A stretch of DNA of 64,000 nt from Rhea pennata (taxonomy: Eukaryota; Chordata; Aves; Rheiformes; Rheidae). Under the pieces are notes generated by a model, which worked only from the letters and a program-made list of their open reading frames with translations, made no database searches and was not told the origin of the DNA. Position 1 is the stretch's first letter. Each line of letters begins with the position of its first letter. The stretch covers positions 5,430,157 to 5,494,156 of the forward strand of contig NC_084687.1 in assembly GCF_028389875.1 (NCBI RefSeq), in the 5' to 3' direction. This document shows, one piece after another, positions 43,078 to 63,824 of this stretch. The translations under genes were made by a program, and so were the position numbers.

Positions 43078-43333
43078 TTATCCTCTTCCCAGGATGAAGT
43101 TTATGAGTGGATTGTTTGGGTCAATCTCCATAGTTACATATACAAAGAGCACAAACACAAAGATGGCGAATATCGCAATCCTTACAGGCATTGGTATCAG
43201 ACTTCGAGAGGTCTCTTCCTGTGCTACTCTTGTTCTGTAACTGTCTTTTTCCAGTACAAACTTCTCCTTTTCCACTTTAAGTGTTTCCATAGCCTGAGCT
43301 GTTGACTGTTCATCCTCCTTCTCTGGTCTTTTC
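43078..43333 (-). CDS. LEMD1: LEMD1 terminal coding exon with membrane anchor
   Basis: Acceptor AATCCCAGCAG. Begins KRPEKEDEQSTAQAMETLKV, continues through a charged helix, then the hydrophobic segment IAIFAIFVFVLFVYV and the tail PNNPLINFILGRG with a TAA stop at 43078-43080. The tail-anchored layout matches LEMD1. Confidence 0.9.
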
Positions 43334-46300: not shown

Positions 46301-49300
46301 GTACTTTATCCTTCATTAATAATCTTTTATCTACTTGTTTTATATTTAAAAATGTGTGTATGTGTGCACGCATGCACACATGTATAATATATGGACTATT
46401 ACAGAGTGGCACCAATGAAACACTTAATTGCCATTAGCTAGCAGTTTCACAAAGGAATTATTCTTATGAATATTATCAAGTATGCATTGAAAGCTGCAAG
46501 ATCATACAAAGAAACAAAGTACAAGTAAGTAGAGTTTAATGTTCTGTGCCATAAATGGACCTGGCTTCCTGCATTTATCATTGCTACGGAGTCAGAAGTA
46601 TGACATAACAAGCAGTAATGAAAATCCAGAAAAGTTCTCCTCAAAAATTCATGAAATGCTAGATGCAAAGGCACAACAAGATATGTAGCAAGGACAGATA
46701 CTTTCCTCTGCCATTATCTTAGCAAGACTGTGATCTGCATTAGGTGACAGAAATTTCTTGTGGCGTTCAGGCACCTCCAGCTGTGAAGGCTATAAAGCAA
46801 AAGAGAAAGCAGCAAGAAATACCAAGAGAACACTAGTGACTTTGACTATGTTAAAGGTCAATATATTTTCAAATAGCATAACAAGAAAGGTTTTCTCCAG
46901 TATGGATGTGATAGGATAACCAAGTTCAGTAAATACATATTCTTTCTTCCAGCTGTTTCCCAATGCTGTAAGATGCTGAAGAAAACTATTTCCACCCAGA
47001 TTTCCCTTCTAACTCAAGGGGCAACGAAAGAGGTAAAATGAAGCATGGCTCGAAGAGCAGCTACCATACAGGAGAGCCAGCTTAGTTTCCTGAGCTACTG
47101 CAGACTACCTAGGTAACCTTTGGCAAGCCACTTGAAGCTCCATGCTACAGAGCTACTTAAGTCCAAATTGCAGGTCTCCGTTCATAAAACATGGAGAAAA
47201 GCACTTCCCATCACAGAGGTGTTCTGAAGACTAATGTAATAAACTACCCAGTATCCACTTCTGTGTGAGAACTGAAAATACAAGGAGAAGCTATAGATCC
47301 TAGTTTTTATTGGTACTGATTTTTATTACAGTGGTAACTCTTTTAAACCAAGTCATTATTCAACATATACAACACTAAGGACTGCATCAGAATCAACGTT
47401 GTATTTTAAATACACTGCTAAATCTGTATCTGTAGTTACTTGGGTGTCCCAAAAAATAAACTTGACACACACTTAAACACCTTAGCTGGCTCACTGATAG
47501 TATACAAAGCTCAAGAAAGCAGAAGGCAGACCACAGAAGCATGCCATAATTAACTGATTGGATACAATTGCTACATTTGTCATGAGGCTAATACAAAAAG
47601 CATCAGTTTATATTAACTTGCAGTTTCCTTCATTTAGCTGCAGATACATAAAATATTCATGCATTAGTAGATTACTTACTTCACAATAGCCAGAGGCACA
47701 GGCTGCTGTCACTCTGAAGTCTTTTGTTTCAAGGATTACGTGAGTATTTCCCTCTGAATGATAGATGGGAAAAAAAAATAAGCAAGAACTAAAATGGGTG
47801 AATTCCTCCAATATCTATACCAGGTTGCATAATTTGATACTTTTAAAAGCTACAGTTCAGGCCATCTTTACATAGTGCATTGCTTTACTATCCTCTTTGC
47901 ATTCATTGGAACAATGGTTGGTTATGGATGTGGTTTGTGTGCATGTTCAAATGGCTTGCCATCAACCAAGCCAAACTCCAGCAGGGACCTACAGAACACG
48001 GTTACAGAAATGGAGAAACAGCAAAGCCAGCAGCAAGAAGCAGAGCTGTATGTTGAAACACATTCAAGTCTCTAAGCTAAAGAAGTGATTAAGAGCCTGT
48101 TCATCTGGTAGGATCACATACCAAAAACAAGTGAACAGTCAAGTTATCCATCCACAAAGCTTAATACAGTAAAATCAGTAAATAATCTTTTCCTTTAAAT
48201 CATTTTCAATCACAACACAAAGAAGCTGTGTTTGAACCAGCTCTGCTTTTGTTATGACAGCTGCTATACTGTCACATTAGTCCGATGCACAGCTGTTGGC
48301 TCAGTGTTTTTTCAAAACACATCTAAACTGCTCAGGATTTTGGAATTCTTCCTTCAAAGCAGCAACAGAAGTCACCCTACCAAGCTAATTGCTTGAACAA
48401 AGCTAGATATTCATTACAGTCTGTAAAATAAATGGGAAGCTGGCTTCATCTTTCAAGAGAACTTCAAAGGACATCACTAAAGAGAAAAAGGAGGAAAACC
48501 ATTCAGTAAAACTCCCCAAAAAGGATTTGAGTTTAAAATAGCCAGTGTTCTACTTCAGTAAAGAGACTTTTGTTTTCTTCTAAGATTACTTCAAGCACCT
48601 TGATAGTCCCATAGGAATTTCAAGGCAGATCAGAAGCCCATTAGTTTCTGTAGCCAGTGAGAGAGTGGTCACCAGAATTATTTTCAAGAATTTCACTAGT
48701 ATGTAACTTGAATTGGAAGATGCAGATAAATAACAAAGCCAGGTATGAGTAAAGACTCACACTTTTTTACTTTTAGATTCTAAGATTAATATTATACCTT
48801 GTTCTTTTTGATCTTCATTTTCTGAGCCCTGATCAAGGTGTCCGGTTTCATCTGGTTTACCATAGCAGGCTGGTGTGCTTTGATCTATCAACTGCAGAAG
48901 CTTGTTTTCATAAAGTGTCCTTGTGGAAGCTAGAATAGATAATCCAGAAAACACAAACGTATCTGCTAAAGTTGTGGAGGCATCCAAAGTCAGAACTTAA
49001 CAATCCTCATTTAGGAGAATGGCTGAAAACACAACTATTTACTTTAATGGAGCTGATTTTTGGAGTCACACTAGTCTTTCAGTATTAGATCAACATCCTT
49101 TACCTTCTCATTCAGCCTCTCCTCAACCACACCCAATTAATACTTATTCGGTTAGGTCTGATTCGTGCATAAATCCCATCCAACCATAATTGCTATGGTG
49201 CATACGCAGTATTGGTCCAGGTTTGGCTCCATACAAGATGAGCTGTTCCTGCAGTTCGCTGTCACTCAAACGTTGAACATCAAGTTCCTCTGAGTTGTGT

Positions 49301-49353
49301 TGGTCTATGTCTTCTGGTTGTTCTATCAGCATGCCAACCATAACCTGGGCCAT
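43078..49353 (-). CDS. LEMD1: LEMD1, LEM domain-containing protein 1 (six-exon model)
   Basis: LEM-domain membrane protein; LEM domains of this family bind BAF (BANF1) and inner nuclear membrane location is typical of relatives such as emerin and LAP2. The exons 49206-49353, 48771-48929, 47680-47753, 46702-46780, 44413-44494 and 43078-43333 chain in phase to about 265 residues with GT-AG junctions throughout. Residues 24-66 form the LEM domain (VQRLSDSELQEQLILYG, GPILPSTRTLYENKLLQL), split by an intron after GPIL exactly within the conserved GPILPSTR. A middle acidic, low-complexity part follows. The last exon has a charged helix (KVEKEKFVLEKD), a membrane segment at about 233-249 (IAIFAIFVFVLFVYV) and a short tail. 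The start at 49353 has a good Kozak context (GCAATGG), but an upstream coding exon is possible. The domain and synteny are firm; middle exons 47680-47753 and 46702-46780 are inferred. Confidence 0.87.
43750..43770. repeat. poly-T run (21 nt)
   Basis: A homopolymer in the last LEMD1 intron, preceded by a seven-A run. Confidence 0.95.
44413..44494 (-). CDS. LEMD1: LEMD1 coding exon 5 (inferred)
   Basis: 82 nt with acceptor AATCAGACAG and donor GTAATG. Encodes ETSSDGTGNDDTDEIWFSYP and WSPIGI. Using the downstream of two nearby AGs gives the only frame that joins exon 4 and exon 6. Confidence 0.75.
46702..46780 (-). CDS. LEMD1: LEMD1 coding exon 4 (inferred)
   Basis: 79 nt with acceptor TAGCCTTCACAG and donor GTATCT. 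Encodes LEVPERHKKFLSPNADHSLA and KIMAEE in the required frame. It was not visible as a long open frame; found by reading splice signals. Confidence 0.65.
47105..47241 (+). mobile_element. MIR-like fossil
   Basis: CTAGGTAACCTTTGGCAAGC CACTTGAAGC corresponds to the MIR 'gaccttgggcaagtcactt' block, and downstream words (CATAAAACATGGAGAAAAGC, GGTGTTCTGAAGACTAATG) correspond to its 'gtaaaatggggataat' and 'gttgtgaggattaaatg' parts. It is diverged but collinear. Confidence 0.55.
47680..47753 (-). CDS. LEMD1: LEMD1 coding exon 3 (inferred)
   Basis: 74 nt between a long pyrimidine acceptor (TTTTTTTCCCATCTATCATTCAG region) and a perfect GTAAGTAA donor. It is open only in the frame required by its neighbours and encodes GNTHVILETKDFRVTAACAS and GYCE. 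No family motif is recognised. Confidence 0.68.
48771..48929 (-). CDS. LEMD1: LEMD1 coding exon 2
   Basis: Acceptor ATCTATTCTAG. Encodes STRTLYENKLLQLIDQ, completing the LEM domain, then an acidic part (DQGSENEDQKEQG). The donor is taken as AAAA|GTAAAA because it gives the phase needed by the next exon. Alternatives a few bases downstream (GTGTGA, GTGAGT) do not. Confidence 0.85.
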
Positions 49354-54479: not shown

Positions 54480-55960
54480 GAGAAGCCCCCCGCAGCCACA
54501 CACAGGAGAAAAATAGAGCCAGGAAAAGGGGAGGCTCTTCCCCCACCGCAGCTCAGCAGCGCCCCATTCCCCGGGGCGTTAGGGCACATCCTCCCCCCAA
54601 CACTCCCCGGCCGCGGGGCTCTCTCGGGGGCTCTTGCTGCACCCCCGCAGGGTAAAAGGAACCCCCGCACTGGGGGCGCCGTGACCCCGACGTGATTCGA
54701 ACACGCAGCCTTCTGATCTGGAGTCAGACGCGCTACCGTTGCGCCACGAGGTCTCCGCAACCGCAACCCCAGCCAGCCGCCAAGAGCCTGCGCGCCGCCC
54801 CACGCATGCGCGTCACCGCCCCCGCGCGCGCCCGGCGGCGTCCCGGCCCCCGCGCCCCACGGCCCCCGCGCCCCACAGGCCCCCCTATGCCTCGGCCCGC
54901 CTCGGCCCCCCTCAGCCCTGGCACGGCACGGCACGGGGCAGGGGCACGGCCCCAGCCCCCCTCGTCCCGGCATCAGCGACGGCGGCAGCGGCCGAACACG
55001 CCCCGCCCCCTCACGGCCCCAACGGCTTTCAAGCCGCCCGCCCGCCTCAACTGCCCACGCCCCCCTCGGGCCGTACCACCTCCCGGGAGGGGGGGGGGGG
55101 ACGCGCGCCGCTTCTCCCGCGGGGACCACCTGCCACCTCCCCCCCCGCGCCCTGCTCTCTGGTCTGCCCCAGCCTCCTCACCCCGGATTTAAAGGGGCCC
55201 GGCCCCACGCCGAGCGCCCCGTTGCATGCACTGAGCTGGGCCGCCCCGCCGTTCTCAGCTCAGGCGGAGCCGCTGGAGGCAGAACGAAGCAGGGCGCGTT
55301 TCGCTGTTGCACTGCAACGCGTCGGGGCGTTCCGGCGGCTCCGGCCGGCCCTCGGTTCAGTCCGCGCCTGTCAGCATGCCGCGGCCGTCGCGGCTCGGCA
55401 GCCCGCGCTGGGGAGCGGCGGAGAGCCCGGGGCAGCGCGCTGCAGAGCGGGGGCTGCCGGCGCGGACCCGCTCCGCGCGCGCGGGGCCTGGCCGCGGCGG
55501 GGGGCCGGGGCTCACCCGGGCAAACGCGCCTGCGAGGCCGTCGGCCGCGGCCGCGGCGGGAATGAGGCGCGGCGGGGCGGGCTGGTTTCATGTTTTATTT
55601 CATGTTCTCGCCCGCGCCGGTCTGATCTCGGGCCCCGGCCGGGTTGTAACGCGGGAGCCCTTCTCGGCGCCCCCCGCCCGGAGCGGTATAAACGGTATAA
55701 AAATACGTTCAGGAGCCGCCGGCGGCTGGTTGGGCCCGCCGGGAAAACGCTCCGGCCGCGCTCCGTGGCGCGTCCGCCGCCGCCTGCGGGAACCGGGCGC
55801 TTTCCGCGGAGCGAGAGGATGCAAGCGGGATCGCTGCGGGCGGGGGCGCCCGGGGCCGCGCTCCCCTCGTCCCGCGGGGCGCCGGGAGCACGGGGACGCA
55901 GGCTCGCCGCATCGCCCCGGGCAGCCGCTCCTGCAGTGGAAAAGCAAAAGCCACGTGGAC
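54480..55960. promoter_or_regulatory. CpG island around the tRNA-Trp gene, candidate LEMD1 promoter
   Basis: Dense CpG over about 1.5 kb. It includes an NRF1-like palindrome with adjoining CRE-like GCGTCA (CACGCATGCGCGTCA, about 54801-54815) and two TATA-like words on the plus strand (55687-55692 and 55697-55703). LEMD1, transcribed leftward, has its first recognised exon 5 kb away, so this is a plausible promoter. The plus-strand TATA words could instead start a divergent transcript. Long open frames here are compositional. Confidence 0.5.
54682..54753 (-). tRNA. tRNA-Trp (anticodon CCA)
   Basis: A 72-nt nuclear tRNA. On the minus strand it starts GACCTCGTGGCGCAACGG and ends CACGTCGGGGTCA. 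The acceptor stem pairs GACCTCG with CGGGGTC, with one T-G wobble. The anticodon loop is CTCCAGA with CCA at 54719-54721, and the T-loop has GTTCGAATC (B box). There is no intron. A TTTT terminator lies about 25 nt downstream (plus-strand AAAA at 54654-54657). It looks fully functional and is essentially the vertebrate consensus. Confidence 0.97.
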
Positions 55961-56716
55961 GAGTCGAAGGCAGCGGAGAGGAGCAAATTTTGAACGATAA
56001 GCAAAACCCTCGCTTATAGAAATGCCAGTGGTTGTGCAAACGTGTGTGGGGAGGGGGGAGAGTTTTCACTTCGAGAGCTGTCAGCTTTCCAGCCTTCCCA
56101 GCCTCGGGAGCATACGCTGCCTTATTAAAACGCTTCCCCTGGAAAGAGGAAAAAAAATAATCGTTAGGTGTTTTGCCCGGTGCGGATCTGGCTGGCAGCA
56201 CCGGCGCGCGGGCCGGCAGCGCGGGGCTCTGCCCCGGGGCAGCTCTGCAGCAGGGGGGCCGCAGCCCGGAGCCGGGGGGGAGCGGACGTGCAGGCGAAGG
56301 GGCCTTCGGCCGTAAATCCAGGGGTGCAGTCATCGTGACGGCGGGATCGGAAAGCACCGGCAGCCGTTCGTGAACACAACAGAGGCCAGCACGGGAGCGT
56401 GGTGGGAAGCGTATCGTCGCTCTGCGAGCTGCGTCTACGCAGGGAGGTGGAAAGCGCTCTTTAAAAATAACTGGAGCCTGAATGCTTTAACATTCATGCT
56501 GCACTTGGTTAATTTATTGTGTTTTCAGATGTGGATGTGGCGGGTGTGGGCGCGTGTCTGGCTGTCTCGATTCTACGTGCTGCATTCATTAAACGCCTGA
56601 CTCAGGAACTCTCACTGGAGACGGGGATAGTCCAGGCGGAGGGAGAACCCAGCGGGCTCGGAGCTGCCGGCCGCGTCCGGGGCACGGGTGTCGGCGATGC
56701 ACACCGCGCGCGCTGC

Positions 56717-57195
56717 TTGTGTACGGTGCACGGGGTGCGCGCTCGGGTTGTGCGCGGTGTGTGTGCTGGTTGTGCGTGGTGCAGGTGTGTGTGCACAGTG
56801 TGCGCCCTGGTTGTGCGCGGGGCAGTGGGCGTGTGCACTGGTCGAGCACTAGTTGTGCACAGTGCGGGGGGGGGTGTAGTGGTTGTGCACAGTGTGTGCC
56901 CTGTTGTGCGGGAGGGGTGTGCACTGGTCATGCACCGGTTGTGCACAGTGCAGGGGGTGTGTGTACTGGTCACGCACTGGTTGTGCATGGTGCAGGGGCT
57001 GTGCATACTGGTTATGTACAGTGTGTGTCCTGGTTGTGCAGGGGGGGTGTGCACTGACTGTGCAGGGCGTATGTGTACTGGTTGTGCACAGTGTGTGCCC
57101 TGGTCGTGCAGGGGGTGCGTGCACTGCTTGTGCACAGCGCAGGGGGTGTGTGCAGCGGTTGTGCACTGGTTGTGCACAGCGCGGGTGGTCGTGCG
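56717..57195. repeat. Degenerate minisatellite, about 42-bp unit, GTGCAC-rich
   Basis: GGTTGTGCACAGTG and GGTCATGCAC-type words recur with spacing near 41-42 bp (for example starts at 56926, 56968 and 57010, and 56937 and 56979). Many units contain GCACTG...CAGTGC, which is self-complementary. All frames are open on both strands, so the Cys/Val-rich and His/Thr-rich frames are not taken as genes. Confidence 0.85.
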
Positions 57196-57735
57196 CACAG
57201 CACGAGCACGGCGCCGGTCCAGGCCCCTCGGCAGCTCGCCCCAGCCCACCGCGGGACAAGCAGTGCCGAGGAGGCCCCCGAAGAGCCCGTCCCGTCCCGC
57301 ACGAGCCTCGTTTCGAGGGGTGGTTCATCGCCGCCGTTCCAGCGCCGGCTGCAGCTCTGCGGCCGCCAAACCACGGCGGGTCCGTGACCGCAGAGGTTTA
57401 GCAGGCCAGGCTAGACGGCCACGAGCTGGGCCAGCCTTCCCGCAGCCCCGCGGGGGCCGTGTAGCTTCTGTAAAGTCCGCTCGAGTGACGCTGCCCGCGA
57501 TTTCCCCCACCTCCCTGCCTCGCGGGGTCCCTCGGAGCACGCACCTGCAGCCGGGACGGCCACGGCCTCCACGCCGCATCGAGCGGGGGCCCAGCCTGTG
57601 GGTCCCGACTCACCGGCGGAGCCCCCACCCCGGGGGCTCGGGAGCATCCCCAGCCTCCGGGCGGCCCCGGGTTCCTGCGCCCACGGGACCGGCCGCGCGG
57701 AGCCACGCGCACCTGCCGGAGAGAGACTTCGGCGT

Positions 57736-57797
57736 GAATAAATAAATACAATAAAATAAACAACGACAACAACAACAAAAAAAAACAAATAAATAAG
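57736..57797. repeat. A-rich (AATAA/ACAAC) low-complexity tract
   Basis: AT-rich simple sequence inserted in otherwise GC-rich DNA, just left of the microprotein candidate. Confidence 0.85.
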
Positions 57798-57908
57798 GGA
57801 ATAATGCAGCTTGCTGCTGCGCTCAGCCCCTTCTGCAACTCACCGCCAGGCGCCAGCCCCGCGGGCGCTGCCGCGGCAGGAGCGCCCGGCCCGCGGCGCC
57901 GGCCCCGC

Positions 57909-58010
57909 TCACACCGCCGTCTCCCGCTCCGCGCCGCGCTCGTCCTTCTCCTTCCTCATCGTGCAGAAGCCGTGGAGGCCGCAGAAGCAGGCGAAGGTGA
58001 AGCGGGGCAT
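57909..58010 (-). CDS. Candidate 33-residue microprotein with C-terminal PDZ-ligand motif
   Basis: A short ORF from the ATG at 58008-58010 (context GCGCCATGC, with G at -3) to a TGA at 57909-57911. The product reads MPRFTFACFCGLHGFCTMRK then EKDERGAERETAV. Residues 1-18 are aromatic and cysteine-rich (C8, C10, C16), residues 19-30 are strongly charged, and the end ETAV fits a class I PDZ ligand (S/T-X-hydrophobic). This ordered amphipathic layout differs from the Arg/Pro/Ala shadows around it. It lies between LEMD1 and miR-135b on the same strand, where human has the BLACAT1 'overlapping LEMD1' locus; I cannot verify homology. The upstream frame stays open, so a longer N-terminus or a chance ORF is possible. 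Confidence 0.5.
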   Translation of the reverse strand: MPRFTFACFCGLHGFCTMRKEKDERGAERETAV

Positions 58011-58813
58011 GGCGCGGGGCCGCCGGCGCGGGCAGCGGCGCCCCGGAGCGGAGCCCGCGCCGCGGCCCGGCAGCTGCGGGAGGCAAGCGTGCGAATTAAC
58101 GCCTGTTTGGGGCTTTTTTTCCTCCCCCCCCCGAAAGAAACAAGAGGTATTCACAGAAATAGCGCCTGAAGCGAAACTTTTGTTTTCCTCCCTGCTTTAA
58201 TTTCCACGGTTGGCTCTCCTCTCGCCCCGGGGAAGGGGCCGTGCTGAAAGCGCGTGACAGCAGCGAGCGGAAACGCCGGAGCGTTGCCGGCTGCGCGCCG
58301 GGACTGCGGCCCCGTCCCGTCCGGGGCGTTCGCTTTCGCCGCGTGCGCGGGCCTGGGCCGCGTTTGCCGCTGTGCCGGCGAGAGTCGGGAGCCGCTGCAG
58401 TCGCACGCTCGCCTTCCCAGCGCTGCCCCCGACGCGTCTCTCGGAGCCAGCCTGTTCCCCAGCCCGGCCGTTGCCGGCCTCCCCGGGCTTCGCTCCGCCA
58501 ACGCCGCCGCCGAGAGGGGAAACCTTCCCGCGGCGGCTCGCCCGGGAAGCCAGGAGTGCCCTCGGGGCGGCTGCGGGGCGTCACGGGCTCGGGGCTTTCA
58601 CTGCATTTCAGTGCTTTTTTCTTATTATTATTTTCTTCCATCTTTTATTTTTTCCAAGAAATACAATTGAATCAACTTTCAGCTACCTCATTGGAGGGAA
58701 AAACCTTGCCGTTACATTTTGTGCTTTAAACTCTGAATTTCAAGGCTGTCTTCTGCCGCCAGCATGTTGATTTTTGCTGGGAAATGGGATCATTTGCAAT
58801 GGAAATTGGTCCC

Positions 58814-58834
58814 TTTTTTTTTTTTTTTTTTTTT
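58814..58834. repeat. poly-T run (21 nt)
   Basis: A homopolymer in an AT-richer patch (58.62-58.9 kb). Confidence 0.95.
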
Positions 58835-59284
58835 GCAGGGAGCGAGATTAAATCATTTGTAAAGAAATGTAGAAACGTTCCCAGAAATTTCGTTTAGTTT
58901 GCCTTTCGTGGTAGTAACGCTCTCTACCTCCGCAGCCACAACCTGTCCGAAACGACCGGTGATTCAGGGATCGCCTACGCAAAGCGGGTTTCCCCCAAAG
59001 CGCGGCGCAGCGGCGGGAGGTTCGGCGCCGCTGCGGCCGGGGGCGCAGCCCAGCACGTGCAGCTGCCCGCCGGCGGGACCCTCGCGCCCGCGGGACCCTC
59101 GGGCCCGGGTTCCCGCGCCCCCTCGCTGCTTCCACCCTGCCGAAGGCGAAAAACCACCTTCAAAGCCGTGTCCAGAGTCAGCAGCAAAACCCCAAGGGCA
59201 GAAAGGCGCAAGTGGGATAACGCCAACCGGGACAGGGGCCCCACGCCGTCACGGAGGGATCGCGGACGGGCGAAGCTGCTGCTC

Positions 59285-60599: not shown

Positions 60600-60910
60600 T
60601 TGTGATTGGGGAATTTTCTGAATGAGCAAATCCTCATTAAAAAATAATTAAAACAGCCTGGTGAGATTGGCTTAATTCCTTTCATTTTGACTGATGGAGT
60701 TCAGTTTTGATGATTTATGTGCCAGCTCTCACGCTTTCATTGTGGAAACTCATGGGATTTCATGATTTTCTTCTTTCCACACCTCCTTGAGTCATGGGAT
60801 TACAGCTGAATCTCAGCTTTCATTTTTTTCAATGACTATTATTTTTAGAGATGCATTCCAGGCCGGTGAAATAAACTTGAAAGCTTGACACCTAATGACT
60901 CAAAGCTCAG
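60600..60910. promoter_or_regulatory. AT-rich island, likely conserved non-coding element
   Basis: About 300 bp of AT-rich but non-repetitive DNA inside a GC-rich domain, 0.4 kb downstream of the miR-135b hairpin in its transcription direction. It has homeodomain-like (AAATAATTAAAA), AP-1-like (TGAGTCAT, 60788-60795) and TGACTGATGG words. No open frame of note. Confidence 0.4.
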
Positions 60911-61221: not shown

Positions 61222-61307
61222 CCTCCGGGCAGCCCATGGCTTTTCGCCCTACATGAGTTTGGAAAAGCAATCACATAGGAATAAAAAGCCATAGGCCGCA
61301 GCGGAGG
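61222..61307 (-). ncRNA. MIR135B: miR-135b precursor (miR-135 family)
   Basis: A clear hairpin on the minus strand. The 5p arm (61271-61293) contains the family seed ATGGCTTTTTATTCCTATGT. The 3p arm (61233-61254) reads ATGTAGGGCGAAAAGCCATG and two more bases. The arms pair through GGCC(T/C)ATGGCTTTT, and the outer CCTCCG/CGGAGG closes the stem. Loop and 3p arm resemble human mir-135b as I know it, including the ATTGC loop flank and AAACTCATGTAGGGC. The 5p arm, however, has T where mammalian 135b has C, so its mature 5p equals miR-135a. The human locus is also upstream of and co-oriented with LEMD1. Known targets of the family include APC in mammals. Confidence 0.96.
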
Positions 61308-61309
61308 GC

Positions 61310-62860
61310 TCGCGAGGATGTGCCGGTGGTCTGGGGGGGGGGGGAGAAAAGGAAAAAGGGAAAGGGGGGGGAATAAAGTGACGCGACCTCACCCTGGGCA
61401 GCTTTTCAGCTTCCCAGGAACGCCGGGGAGCGCTGCGCCGTCCCGCCGGGCGGTGCGAGCCAGCGGGCCGCAGCGCGGGCTCGCGGCTGCAAACCGAGCG
61501 GCCCTTTCCCGCGCGGCTCGCCGGCGGGCGCTGCTTCCGCTGCCGCCAGTGGATTTCGCAAGCAGGGAGGGAAGGTGTTTGGCAACGGGGGCAAGGAAGG
61601 CAAAGACGCTTCCCCGCGGAGCGTCGCCCCCGCTGCCCGCTCGGAGCAGCCTCCCCTCGCCGGAGCAGCCCCGGAGGAGGCATCTCGGGGCAGCGCAGCA
61701 GGAGCGCCGGGCGCCCGGACACACACCTTCCTCCGGAGCAAAAGCCTCTGCAGCTCCCTCCGGGAGCCGCTCCGGGGCCGCTGGCGCTGCCCAGGTTGTG
61801 CCTGGGAACGGGCTGGCCGCTGCCTTCCTCCTCTCCCCTGGCAGGGCTCCTGCTCGCTCAGCAGCAGCGACCGCTAATTGCAGGGAGCTGATGAGGTCAG
61901 CTCTGCTATTGAGGCTCGGAAATTCCCTTTCTTGTTGCCCTAGCAAGAAGCCTCGGGAAATTCAATGTTTCTGAAAGTACACAGCAGCCAGGTTTGGGAG
62001 CAGGAAGGGTTTTGCACCCTGCAGTCCGTAATTGCAGCGCACACAACTTTGACCCGTAAAGCAAACTTCTGAAGCGCATGGCGAGCTCCGAAATGGCAGC
62101 TCCCCAATTCTTTTCTCTTTTACCCACCATATGTAAGTGGCAGGAGAAAGAAGGTGTCCGTGTGCTGCGCCTTCTCACACGCTCGCACTCGCCCCACAAC
62201 CCTTTTTCTCTGCACCCAGCGGATGGACGGTGTGTCCGGAGGACGGGCTGAACTGCAGAGCCGGGCGAGGAGCCCAGCGAGCCCCGGGGCCCCTGTGGTG
62301 TGTGTGGGGCGCGCGCAGCGTTACGCCGGGGATGGCTCTAGGAGAATACGCCCGCGCACGCCTGCGGACGCTGCCTGCCAGGCTGCCTGCACGCAGGGCC
62401 CTCCGCGCCTGGCTCCCGCGCCGGGGAGCTGCCTCAGCCCGGAGCCGGGCAAAGGGATGCACGAAGGAGAGAGAGCCCCGATACCCCCGCGAGCCTGACG
62501 GCGCTTGCAGAAAGGGCCTCGCGGCTCCGCTTCGGCACCCGAGACCTCTGCAAGGCGGGTGCAGCCAGCGCGGCCCCGCGGGGCGCCGGGCCGGCCCCCC
62601 GCCCCCCTCCCCGAGCAGGGCAGCGCCCGGCGGAGCCAGCCCGGTCCTCACCTGCGGCGCCGCATCCTCCACGCGGGAAGGGCCCGGGCCCGGCGGCCGC
62701 CGGCGCTCCGCCGGGCGCGTAGCCGAGCCGGCTGCGCGCCGCGGGGCCGGAGGAGAGGGGCGGGCGCGGGGGGTCAGGTATTTCTCCATCGCGGCTCCGC
62801 GGAGCCCGTAACAAAGGCGCTATTGAACTGGAGCCTCTCTGGTCTGTGAAGCAGAAACCT
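61310..62860. promoter_or_regulatory. GC-rich region upstream of miR-135b, candidate host-transcript promoter
   Basis: CpG-rich sequence upstream (in minus-strand terms) of the miRNA hairpin. It contains poly-G runs near 61331-61343 and 61363-61370, and a less GC-rich block at 61.88-62.14 kb. A TSS for the pri-miRNA is expected here or further right, but none can be pinned. Confidence 0.35.
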
Positions 62861-62869
62861 CTTGTATCT

Positions 62870-63423
62870 ACTTCACTGCCTTTGATCTGACTCCCCCGGT
62901 GGGATGTGCATTACTCATGTCCTGCTGCTCGGGTATCGCTGCCAGCGTGGGACGGCGGGGGGGGGCGCGGGGGGAGACGCCCCCCTCCCGGCGCCCCGCC
63001 TGGGAAGCATCCCGGCTCCGGGGGCCGCCGAGCCCCGTCCTCGGCGGCCGGTTTGCGCGGCGCGGCGGAGGCGCGGGCGCCCCACGAGCCCCCGCCGCGG
63101 CGGGCGCCCCGCGGGGGAACCTCGCGAAGGGCTTCGCTGGCGGCCGGACAAGGGTCCGACAGCGCAAACGCTTGTCAGGGTGCCCAGATCCCGCGTGTCT
63201 CGGATACGCTCAGAGCCTCCCCCGTGCTGCTTGTCCGGGCTTGCGCTTTTCGGAGGCGGGGGGCGGTTCGGCAGGGCGCGGGGGGGGCGCGGGCGGGCGG
63301 CGGCTGCTCGGTGGCTCCCCCCGGCGAGGCCCTGGGCGCAGCTGGCCGGGAGCGGAGCGGAGCGAAGCAGCAACCCCAGCGCCCCGCGGCCACCGCCGCT
63401 GCCAGGGCAGCCACGGCCCCGGG
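62870..63423. other. GC-rich flank of the minisatellite
   Basis: CpG-dense sequence with poly-G and poly-C runs. The left edge (62.80-62.93 kb) has AACAAAG (SOX-like) and CTTTGATCTG (TCF/LEF-like) words in lower-GC DNA. No gene is supported. Confidence 0.45.
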
Positions 63424-63824
63424 GCCCCGCGGCCGCTCCTGCCGGCCCCACGGCCGCTCCTGCCGGCCCCACAGCCACTCCTGCTAGCCCCATGGCCGCT
63501 CCTACAAACCCTGCGGCTGCTCCTGCCAGCCCCGCGGCCGCTCCTGCCGGCCCCACGGCCGCTCCTACAAACCCTGTGGCCGCTCCTGCCAGCCCCACGG
63601 CCGCTCCTGCCGGCCCCACAGCCATTCCTGCTAGCCCCACGGCCGCTCCTGCAAACCCTGCGGTCGCTCTTGCAAGCCCCGCGGCCACTCCTGCCGGCCC
63701 CGCGGCTGCTCCCGGCAGCCCCACGGCCGCTCCTGCAAGCCCCACAGCTGCTCCTGCCGGCCCCGCGGCCGCTCCTGCAAGCCCCACAGGTGCTCCTGCA
63801 AACCCCATGGCCGCTCCTGCAAAC
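63424..63824. repeat. 21-bp minisatellite, 19 copies without indels
   Basis: The unit is close to CCCCACGGCCGCTCCTGCCG plus one base, with substitutions (AAGC, AAAC and TAGC for CGGC; ACGG, GCGG and ATGG). GCTCC recurs exactly every 21 bp from 63435 to 63813. Because 21 is a multiple of three, frames stay open on both strands (for example PAGPTAA heptads on the plus strand). I treat it as a repeat, not a gene. Confidence 0.92.

Follow-up and report, generated by a model that had tools for sequence, protein, structure and literature searches.

The described locus closest to the one studied here is human BLACAT1 (linc-UBC1; 'BLACAT1 overlapping LEMD1 locus'), a lncRNA whose name places it in the same neighbourhood as the open reading frame (ORF) reported in this study. 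In the excerpts of the literature consulted, BLACAT1 is treated as a lncRNA that acts on microRNAs, whereas the ORF of this study is proposed to be coding. Similar to this ORF, SMIM31 and C10orf143 are short coding sequences (CDS) that were spotted by a selection signature in transcripts annotated as non-coding, according to the excerpts consulted of PMC6886504. SMIM31 and C10orf143, however, consist of 71 and 108 residues, respectively, compared with 33 residues for the ORF product, and they rest on evidence from multiple species, whereas the ORF rests on one genome.

The window, which is the whole stretch of 64,000 nucleotides that was analyzed, is part of contig NC_084687.1 of Rhea pennata. 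An original prediction, made from the letters of the window, had placed on the LEMD1 strand, between LEMD1 and miR-135b, a 33-codon ORF with a Phe/Cys-rich head, a charged middle, a C-terminal ETAV and a purine at position -3 of its ATG. Translation reproduced the coordinates, strand and length of this ORF. Its ATG-to-stop frame was intact, shorter than 100 codons and terminated by TGA, and its peptide possessed the Phe/Cys-rich head (4 Phe and 3 Cys), the charged middle and the ETAV end. The base at -3 was indeed a purine (G) and that at +4 was C; the start context of the ATG at 58010 was only adequate. Matches to the mir-135 family and to LEMD1-like exons on the minus strand (Table 1) also bore out the predicted location. 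The LEMD1-like exons, which we take to belong to LEMD1, were located by a LEMD1 probe, and a regular expression for the LEM motif failed to pick up LEMD1 in the window. The microRNA was designated miR-135b because its precursor adjoins LEMD1. miR-135b lay 3.2 kb upstream of the ORF, and the LEM exon and start of LEMD1 followed about 8.6 kb downstream of the ORF, all on the same strand. The layout in this genome, with the ORF on the minus strand like LEMD1 and flanked by miR-135b and the coding exons of LEMD1, would be BLACAT1-like, as human BLACAT1 presumably occupies this place on the same strand as LEMD1. A search of the genome for a second copy (1.27 Gb in 180 contigs, with the window on contig C25), in which only the best-scoring candidates were scored, returned one match to the ORF peptide, its own site.

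Table 1. Features of the miR-135b/LEMD1 locus, with positions given as those of the window.
Feature	Positions	Strand	Details
miR-135b precursor	61222..61307	minus	full-length match to Rfam RF00246 (mir-135 family), 77 bits; within the intron that would separate both candidate exons
LEMD1, first LEM-domain coding exon	49207..49332	minus	match at 49284-49207; in-frame ATG at 49332, further in-frame ATGs just upstream
LEMD1, second LEM-domain coding part	48760..48951	minus	E 8e-6
LEMD1, transmembrane-segment exon	43126..43236	minus	E 7e-4
33-codon ORF, proposed microprotein CDS	57909..58010	minus	MPRFTFACFCGLHGFCTMRKEKDERGAERETAV + TGA
Candidate internal exon, 230 bases, enclosing the whole ORF	57844..58073	minus	acceptor ttgcctcccgcag before 58073; donor GGCG/GTGAGT after 57844
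Candidate upstream exon (defined at its 3' end; 5' limit set arbitrarily)	62652..62930	minus	donor CGCAG/GTGAGG at 62651, 11.4 bits

The ORF has a coding-type base composition that exceeds chance. Its GC1, GC2 and GC3 were 56, 53 and 100%, respectively. After the ATG, 29 of its 96 bases were A/T, none of which (0/29) was at a third position, and G/C accounted for 32/32 third positions compared with 35/64 first and second positions. Given the composition, the P value for this third-position bias was 4.5e-7, which ranked the ORF first among the window's 532 ATG ORFs with 20 codons or more and was still significant after correction for these 532 ORFs (about 2e-4). The runners-up were read by eye as what are presumably kelch (KLHDC8A) and NUAK2 exons. 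As a control, 57001-59000 was subjected to dinucleotide shuffling in two sets, each of 2,000 shuffles. No shuffle ORF attained the P value of the ORF, either among 28,012 ORFs with a pre-filter (lowest P 9e-5), which scored only ORFs with <15% third-position A/T and >10 A/T and could miss long ORFs, or among 28,046 ORFs without the pre-filter (lowest P 6e-4). Moreover, 69 of the 45,505 open 32-codon segments on both strands held 24 or more A/T, of which no more than one was at a third position. These segments were clustered at three places, each on both strands, which were the NUAK2-like exon, the ORF and, at 63.7 kb, a tandem repeat with a 21-base unit. The GC-rich repeat (63424-63820; 18.9 copies) mimics coding periodicity because its period is a multiple of three.

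Real sequence from the same contig was also used as a control, for which twenty 10-kb stretches (200 kb) were fetched and all 20 were entered. Thirteen of the 1,796 control ORFs reached the value of the ORF. By eye, six of these 13 appear to be true exons and four to lie antisense to such exons; two are on a tandem array, and one received no assignment. For control ORFs of 20-60 codons, the number reaching the value was 1 of 1,282, and this single ORF, also by eye, is presumably the C-terminal exon of TMCC2. For the most part, the composition signature marks coding DNA; on its own, it leaves the strand undecided, and it can be imitated by tandem repeats. We also dropped the notion that periodicity is enough to assign the strand, since antisense shadows passed in the control as well. 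The expectation that the residue order of the ORF would differ from the noise of GC-rich shadow frames was upheld, as its composition lay beyond that of the shuffles and its value was otherwise reached mostly by true exons and their antisense frames.

The flanks of the ORF within the candidate internal exon were more GC-rich than the ORF itself. The 63 bases 5' of the ATG were 93.7% GC and the 65 bases 3' of the stop were 92.3% GC. At first and second codon positions, A/T was 29/64 compared with 9/128 in the flanks (P 1.3e-9), while at third positions, A/T was 0/32 compared with the same 9/128, which was no difference (P 0.21). GC-biased conversion drives the drift to G/C in bird microchromosomes, and the simplest reading of these counts is that free sites drifted to G/C while amino-acid sites were held. 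When rates were preset near the observed ones, the top A/T segment of the candidate exon was exactly 58010..57909. With free rates inside the exon, 58010-57909 scored 12.55, while the shorter segments 58010-57940 and 58001-57940 scored 12.48 and 12.47, respectively, a margin of <0.1 log unit over both. With limits ~10 bases wider, 58001-57940, which is internal to the ORF, came out best. Every best fit listed places the A/T block within the ORF, to within a base. The proposal that the block ends exactly at the ATG and TGA was dropped, given that a shorter stretch inside the ORF was equal or better with free rates and wider limits. The soft edges of the block fit the ATG and TGA loosely and are no proof of the start or stop. 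Because the free-rate fits weakened the argument from the edges, the odds for a real CDS were lowered slightly, and we regard the ORF as probably a real small coding sequence under selection.

The explanation that we rank as best, and to which we give somewhat better than even chances, is a selected small CDS in an exon of a miR-135b/LEMD1 transcript. Selection on the amino acids would maintain the ORF as a small genuine CDS, and its exon would be part of a transcript that runs from upstream of miR-135b towards LEMD1 (pri-miR-135b/LEMD1 5' leader). The spliced transcript would include 58073-57844 as an exon, and ribosomes would start at the ATG at 58010. Judged from its splice signals, 57844-58073 is a plausible candidate exon. 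In splice-matrix scoring, the donor at 57843 reached 9.3 bits, as high as which only 25 of the 3,406 minus-strand GT sites scored, and the acceptor at 58073 was ordinary with 7.2 bits (204 of 4,633 AG sites scored as high). The donors at 57613 and 57544 were about as strong and may provide alternative exon ends. In mouse, miR-135b is located within the first intron of Lemd1, according to the excerpt consulted of PMC3071727, and an exon 5' of the microRNA in this genome would agree with that arrangement. A block containing A/T (62780-62930) was observed within a very GC-rich region shortly before the strong donor at 62651, and this block may serve the miR-135b/LEMD1 transcript as its promoter or first exon.

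The same signature could also be made by a coding exon on the plus strand, of which the minus-strand ORF would be an antisense shadow. The plus-strand frame over the same bases was open and equally GC3-rich, the periodicity was common to both strands, four of the 13 control ORFs at the threshold were antisense frames, and the block edges do not clearly single out the minus-strand ATG and TGA. In addition, when codon usage in six neighbouring coding stretches (1,259 codons) was used to train a strand score, the ORF received -3.4 bits, which slightly favours the plus strand and was below all 36 training blocks, although the score has low power for a short, Phe/Cys-rich peptide. Of the training blocks, 34/36 were positive and the lowest was -2.5 bits. 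The odd Phe/Cys-rich composition may be the cause of the negative score, which still counts against the minus strand. The plus-strand frame, however, had no ATG ahead of the block, and no plus-strand donor of >9 bits was found from 56785 to the window end, where a weaker donor (AAG/GTGAAG at 57997) lay inside the block. Moreover, the ATG-to-stop frame of the minus strand fits the block, and this strand also carries both neighbours, LEMD1 and miR-135b. We consider an antisense shadow to be quite unlikely.

Similar to the selected small CDS, a regulatory uORF would share its strand with LEMD1 and precede the LEMD1 start, in a candidate 5'-leader exon. Its translation in the LEMD1 5' leader would lower or time the translation of LEMD1, and its peptide would be inert. 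Many deeply conserved Ribo-seq ORFs are without PhyloCSF or proteomics support as proteins, according to the excerpts consulted of the GENCODE 2025 report (PMC11701607), which is in line with such a role. Acting by translation alone, however, requires no specific amino acids, yet A/T was kept at first and second codon positions of the ORF and was absent from third positions, which makes a uORF with an inert peptide improbable.

Instead of a stand-alone microprotein, the 33 residues might also form the end of a longer protein, encoded by its C-terminal exon after splicing. The candidate upstream exon contains an ATG at 62789 (GCCGCGATGG), which is in good context and reads in frame into the ORF, and joining exon 1 at its donor (62651) to the ORF exon gave one open frame of 100 residues. 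Coding periodicity, however, was not found in the upstream extension, which consists of 45 exon-1 codons (P 0.48) and of 21 codons before the inner ATG (P 0.59), the latter of which contain just 4 A/T and hence give low power. The coding signature was confined to the 33 residues in the joined frame. The 100-residue product was ranked lower for this lack of periodicity in its extension, and a longer protein is as improbable as the inert uORF.

If the ORF is a selected small CDS, the features of its peptide suggest a possible function. The mean hydropathy of residues 4-18 was +1.4, while residues 19-33, which contain five basic and five acidic residues, were strongly polar (-2.1). Cysteine residues were found at C8, C10 and C16. 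The hydrophobic part comprised 15 residues, which is below transmembrane length. S-acylation would be the likeliest membrane link for the head, because a usual transmembrane helix needs more than 15 residues. The consensus of class I PDZ ligands is a C-terminal S/T-x-hydrophobic. Similar to these ligands, the ORF peptide has at its very end an ETAV that matches the class I [ST]-x-[VIL] pattern; such an end occurs in 14 of 408 window ORFs of 20-60 codons, this ORF included. Given this frequency, a PDZ-type end alone is a ~3% coincidence and thus weak evidence. The ORF was the only one of the 408 to end in [DE][ST]xV.

According to the proposed mechanism, the Phe/Cys head (C8, C10 and C16) would be held on the membrane via S-acylation. 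A charged linker would follow the head, and the free ETAV end would engage a scaffold protein at a class I PDZ domain. Wherever miR-135b/LEMD1 is expressed, the peptide would then occupy this scaffold or recruit it. Given a real CDS, the chances of this membrane/PDZ mechanism are a little short of even; the whole of membrane attachment by S-acylation, PDZ docking of the ETAV end and scaffold occupancy or recruitment is tentative and rather doubtful.

The Cys/His head (C8, C10, H13 and C16) could, instead of being acylated, bind a metal such as zinc. The CxCxxHxxC spacing can be read directly in the peptide, and a single-sequence AlphaFold model sets two low-confidence strands around that turn. 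That model, however, was a low-confidence hairpin (mean pLDDT 63, pTM 0.23), which was uninformative and too weak to use or to enter into a fold search, and the peptide had neither a Pfam match (residues 2-33) nor a PDB sequence match (all 33 residues). A metal site is about as improbable as the longer protein. Least probable of all, and in our view very unlikely, is a frame without coding function that arose by chance in a CpG island or came with a recently inserted piece of unusual base order; although the ORF was one among many that were looked at and its PDZ tail alone is expected in ~3% of short ORFs, no ORF of the unfiltered shuffles attained its P value, which survived the correction for 532 ORFs.

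The proposed microprotein had been predicted to be undescribed. Its peptide strings had no match in full-text searches of the literature, and a keyword search of the literature for BLACAT1/LEMD1 with coding terms returned no report of a peptide among the matches listed. Similarly, no usable precedent was found among the matches listed for the microprotein, PDZ and palmitoylation literature, as far as the excerpts consulted go. Word finds showed that LEMD1 and BLACAT1 were absent from the main text of PMC10032668, PMC10908861, PMC4568590, PMC6886504 and PMC11701607, and that BLACAT1 was absent from the main text of PMC7779007. As far as the peptide-string, keyword, Pfam and PDB searches go, the proposed microprotein may be undescribed. 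In addition, a degenerate-codon pattern for CFCGLHGFC matched one prokaryote contig (Chitinophaga) and no viral contigs. The Chitinophaga match was not accepted as a relative and was taken as chance, as it was antisense to a 485-residue ORF, which by eye is presumably an aldehyde dehydrogenase.

As a selected small CDS, the ORF would join the known microproteins of supposed lncRNAs. If its frame is conserved, a human cancer-lncRNA and microRNA-host locus would also encode a protein, and the knock-down effects credited to the RNA would need rereading. In its most far-reaching form, which we regard as unlikely, the ORF product would be a vertebrate-conserved, PDZ-ending protein of 33 residues that is anchored via acylated Cys and encoded within the miR-135b/LEMD1 leader, a single primary transcript would give rise to a microRNA, a microprotein that binds a scaffold and a LEM-domain protein, and the cancer lncRNA BLACAT1 would be, or derive from, a coding gene. 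Moreover, a single genome can be enough to suspect short coding frames in GC-saturated exons, where A/T is kept at amino-acid sites only.

Other features were also observed around the ORF. On the plus strand, a 408-codon ORF with a GTG start under the bacterial code (56519-57745) was located partly over degenerate GT-rich tandem repeats. It was not accepted as a gene. A sigma-70 promoter scan of the window is meaningless for a bird. On the 3' side of miR-135b, ~300 bases away, an A/T-rich block of ~300 bases (60600-60900) was found in a GC-rich setting, which, as a guess, is a putative regulatory element. Finally, LEMD1 and the ORF had a tRNA-Trp gene (anticodon CCA; 54681-54753, minus strand) between them, which stood at one edge of a GC-rich block.
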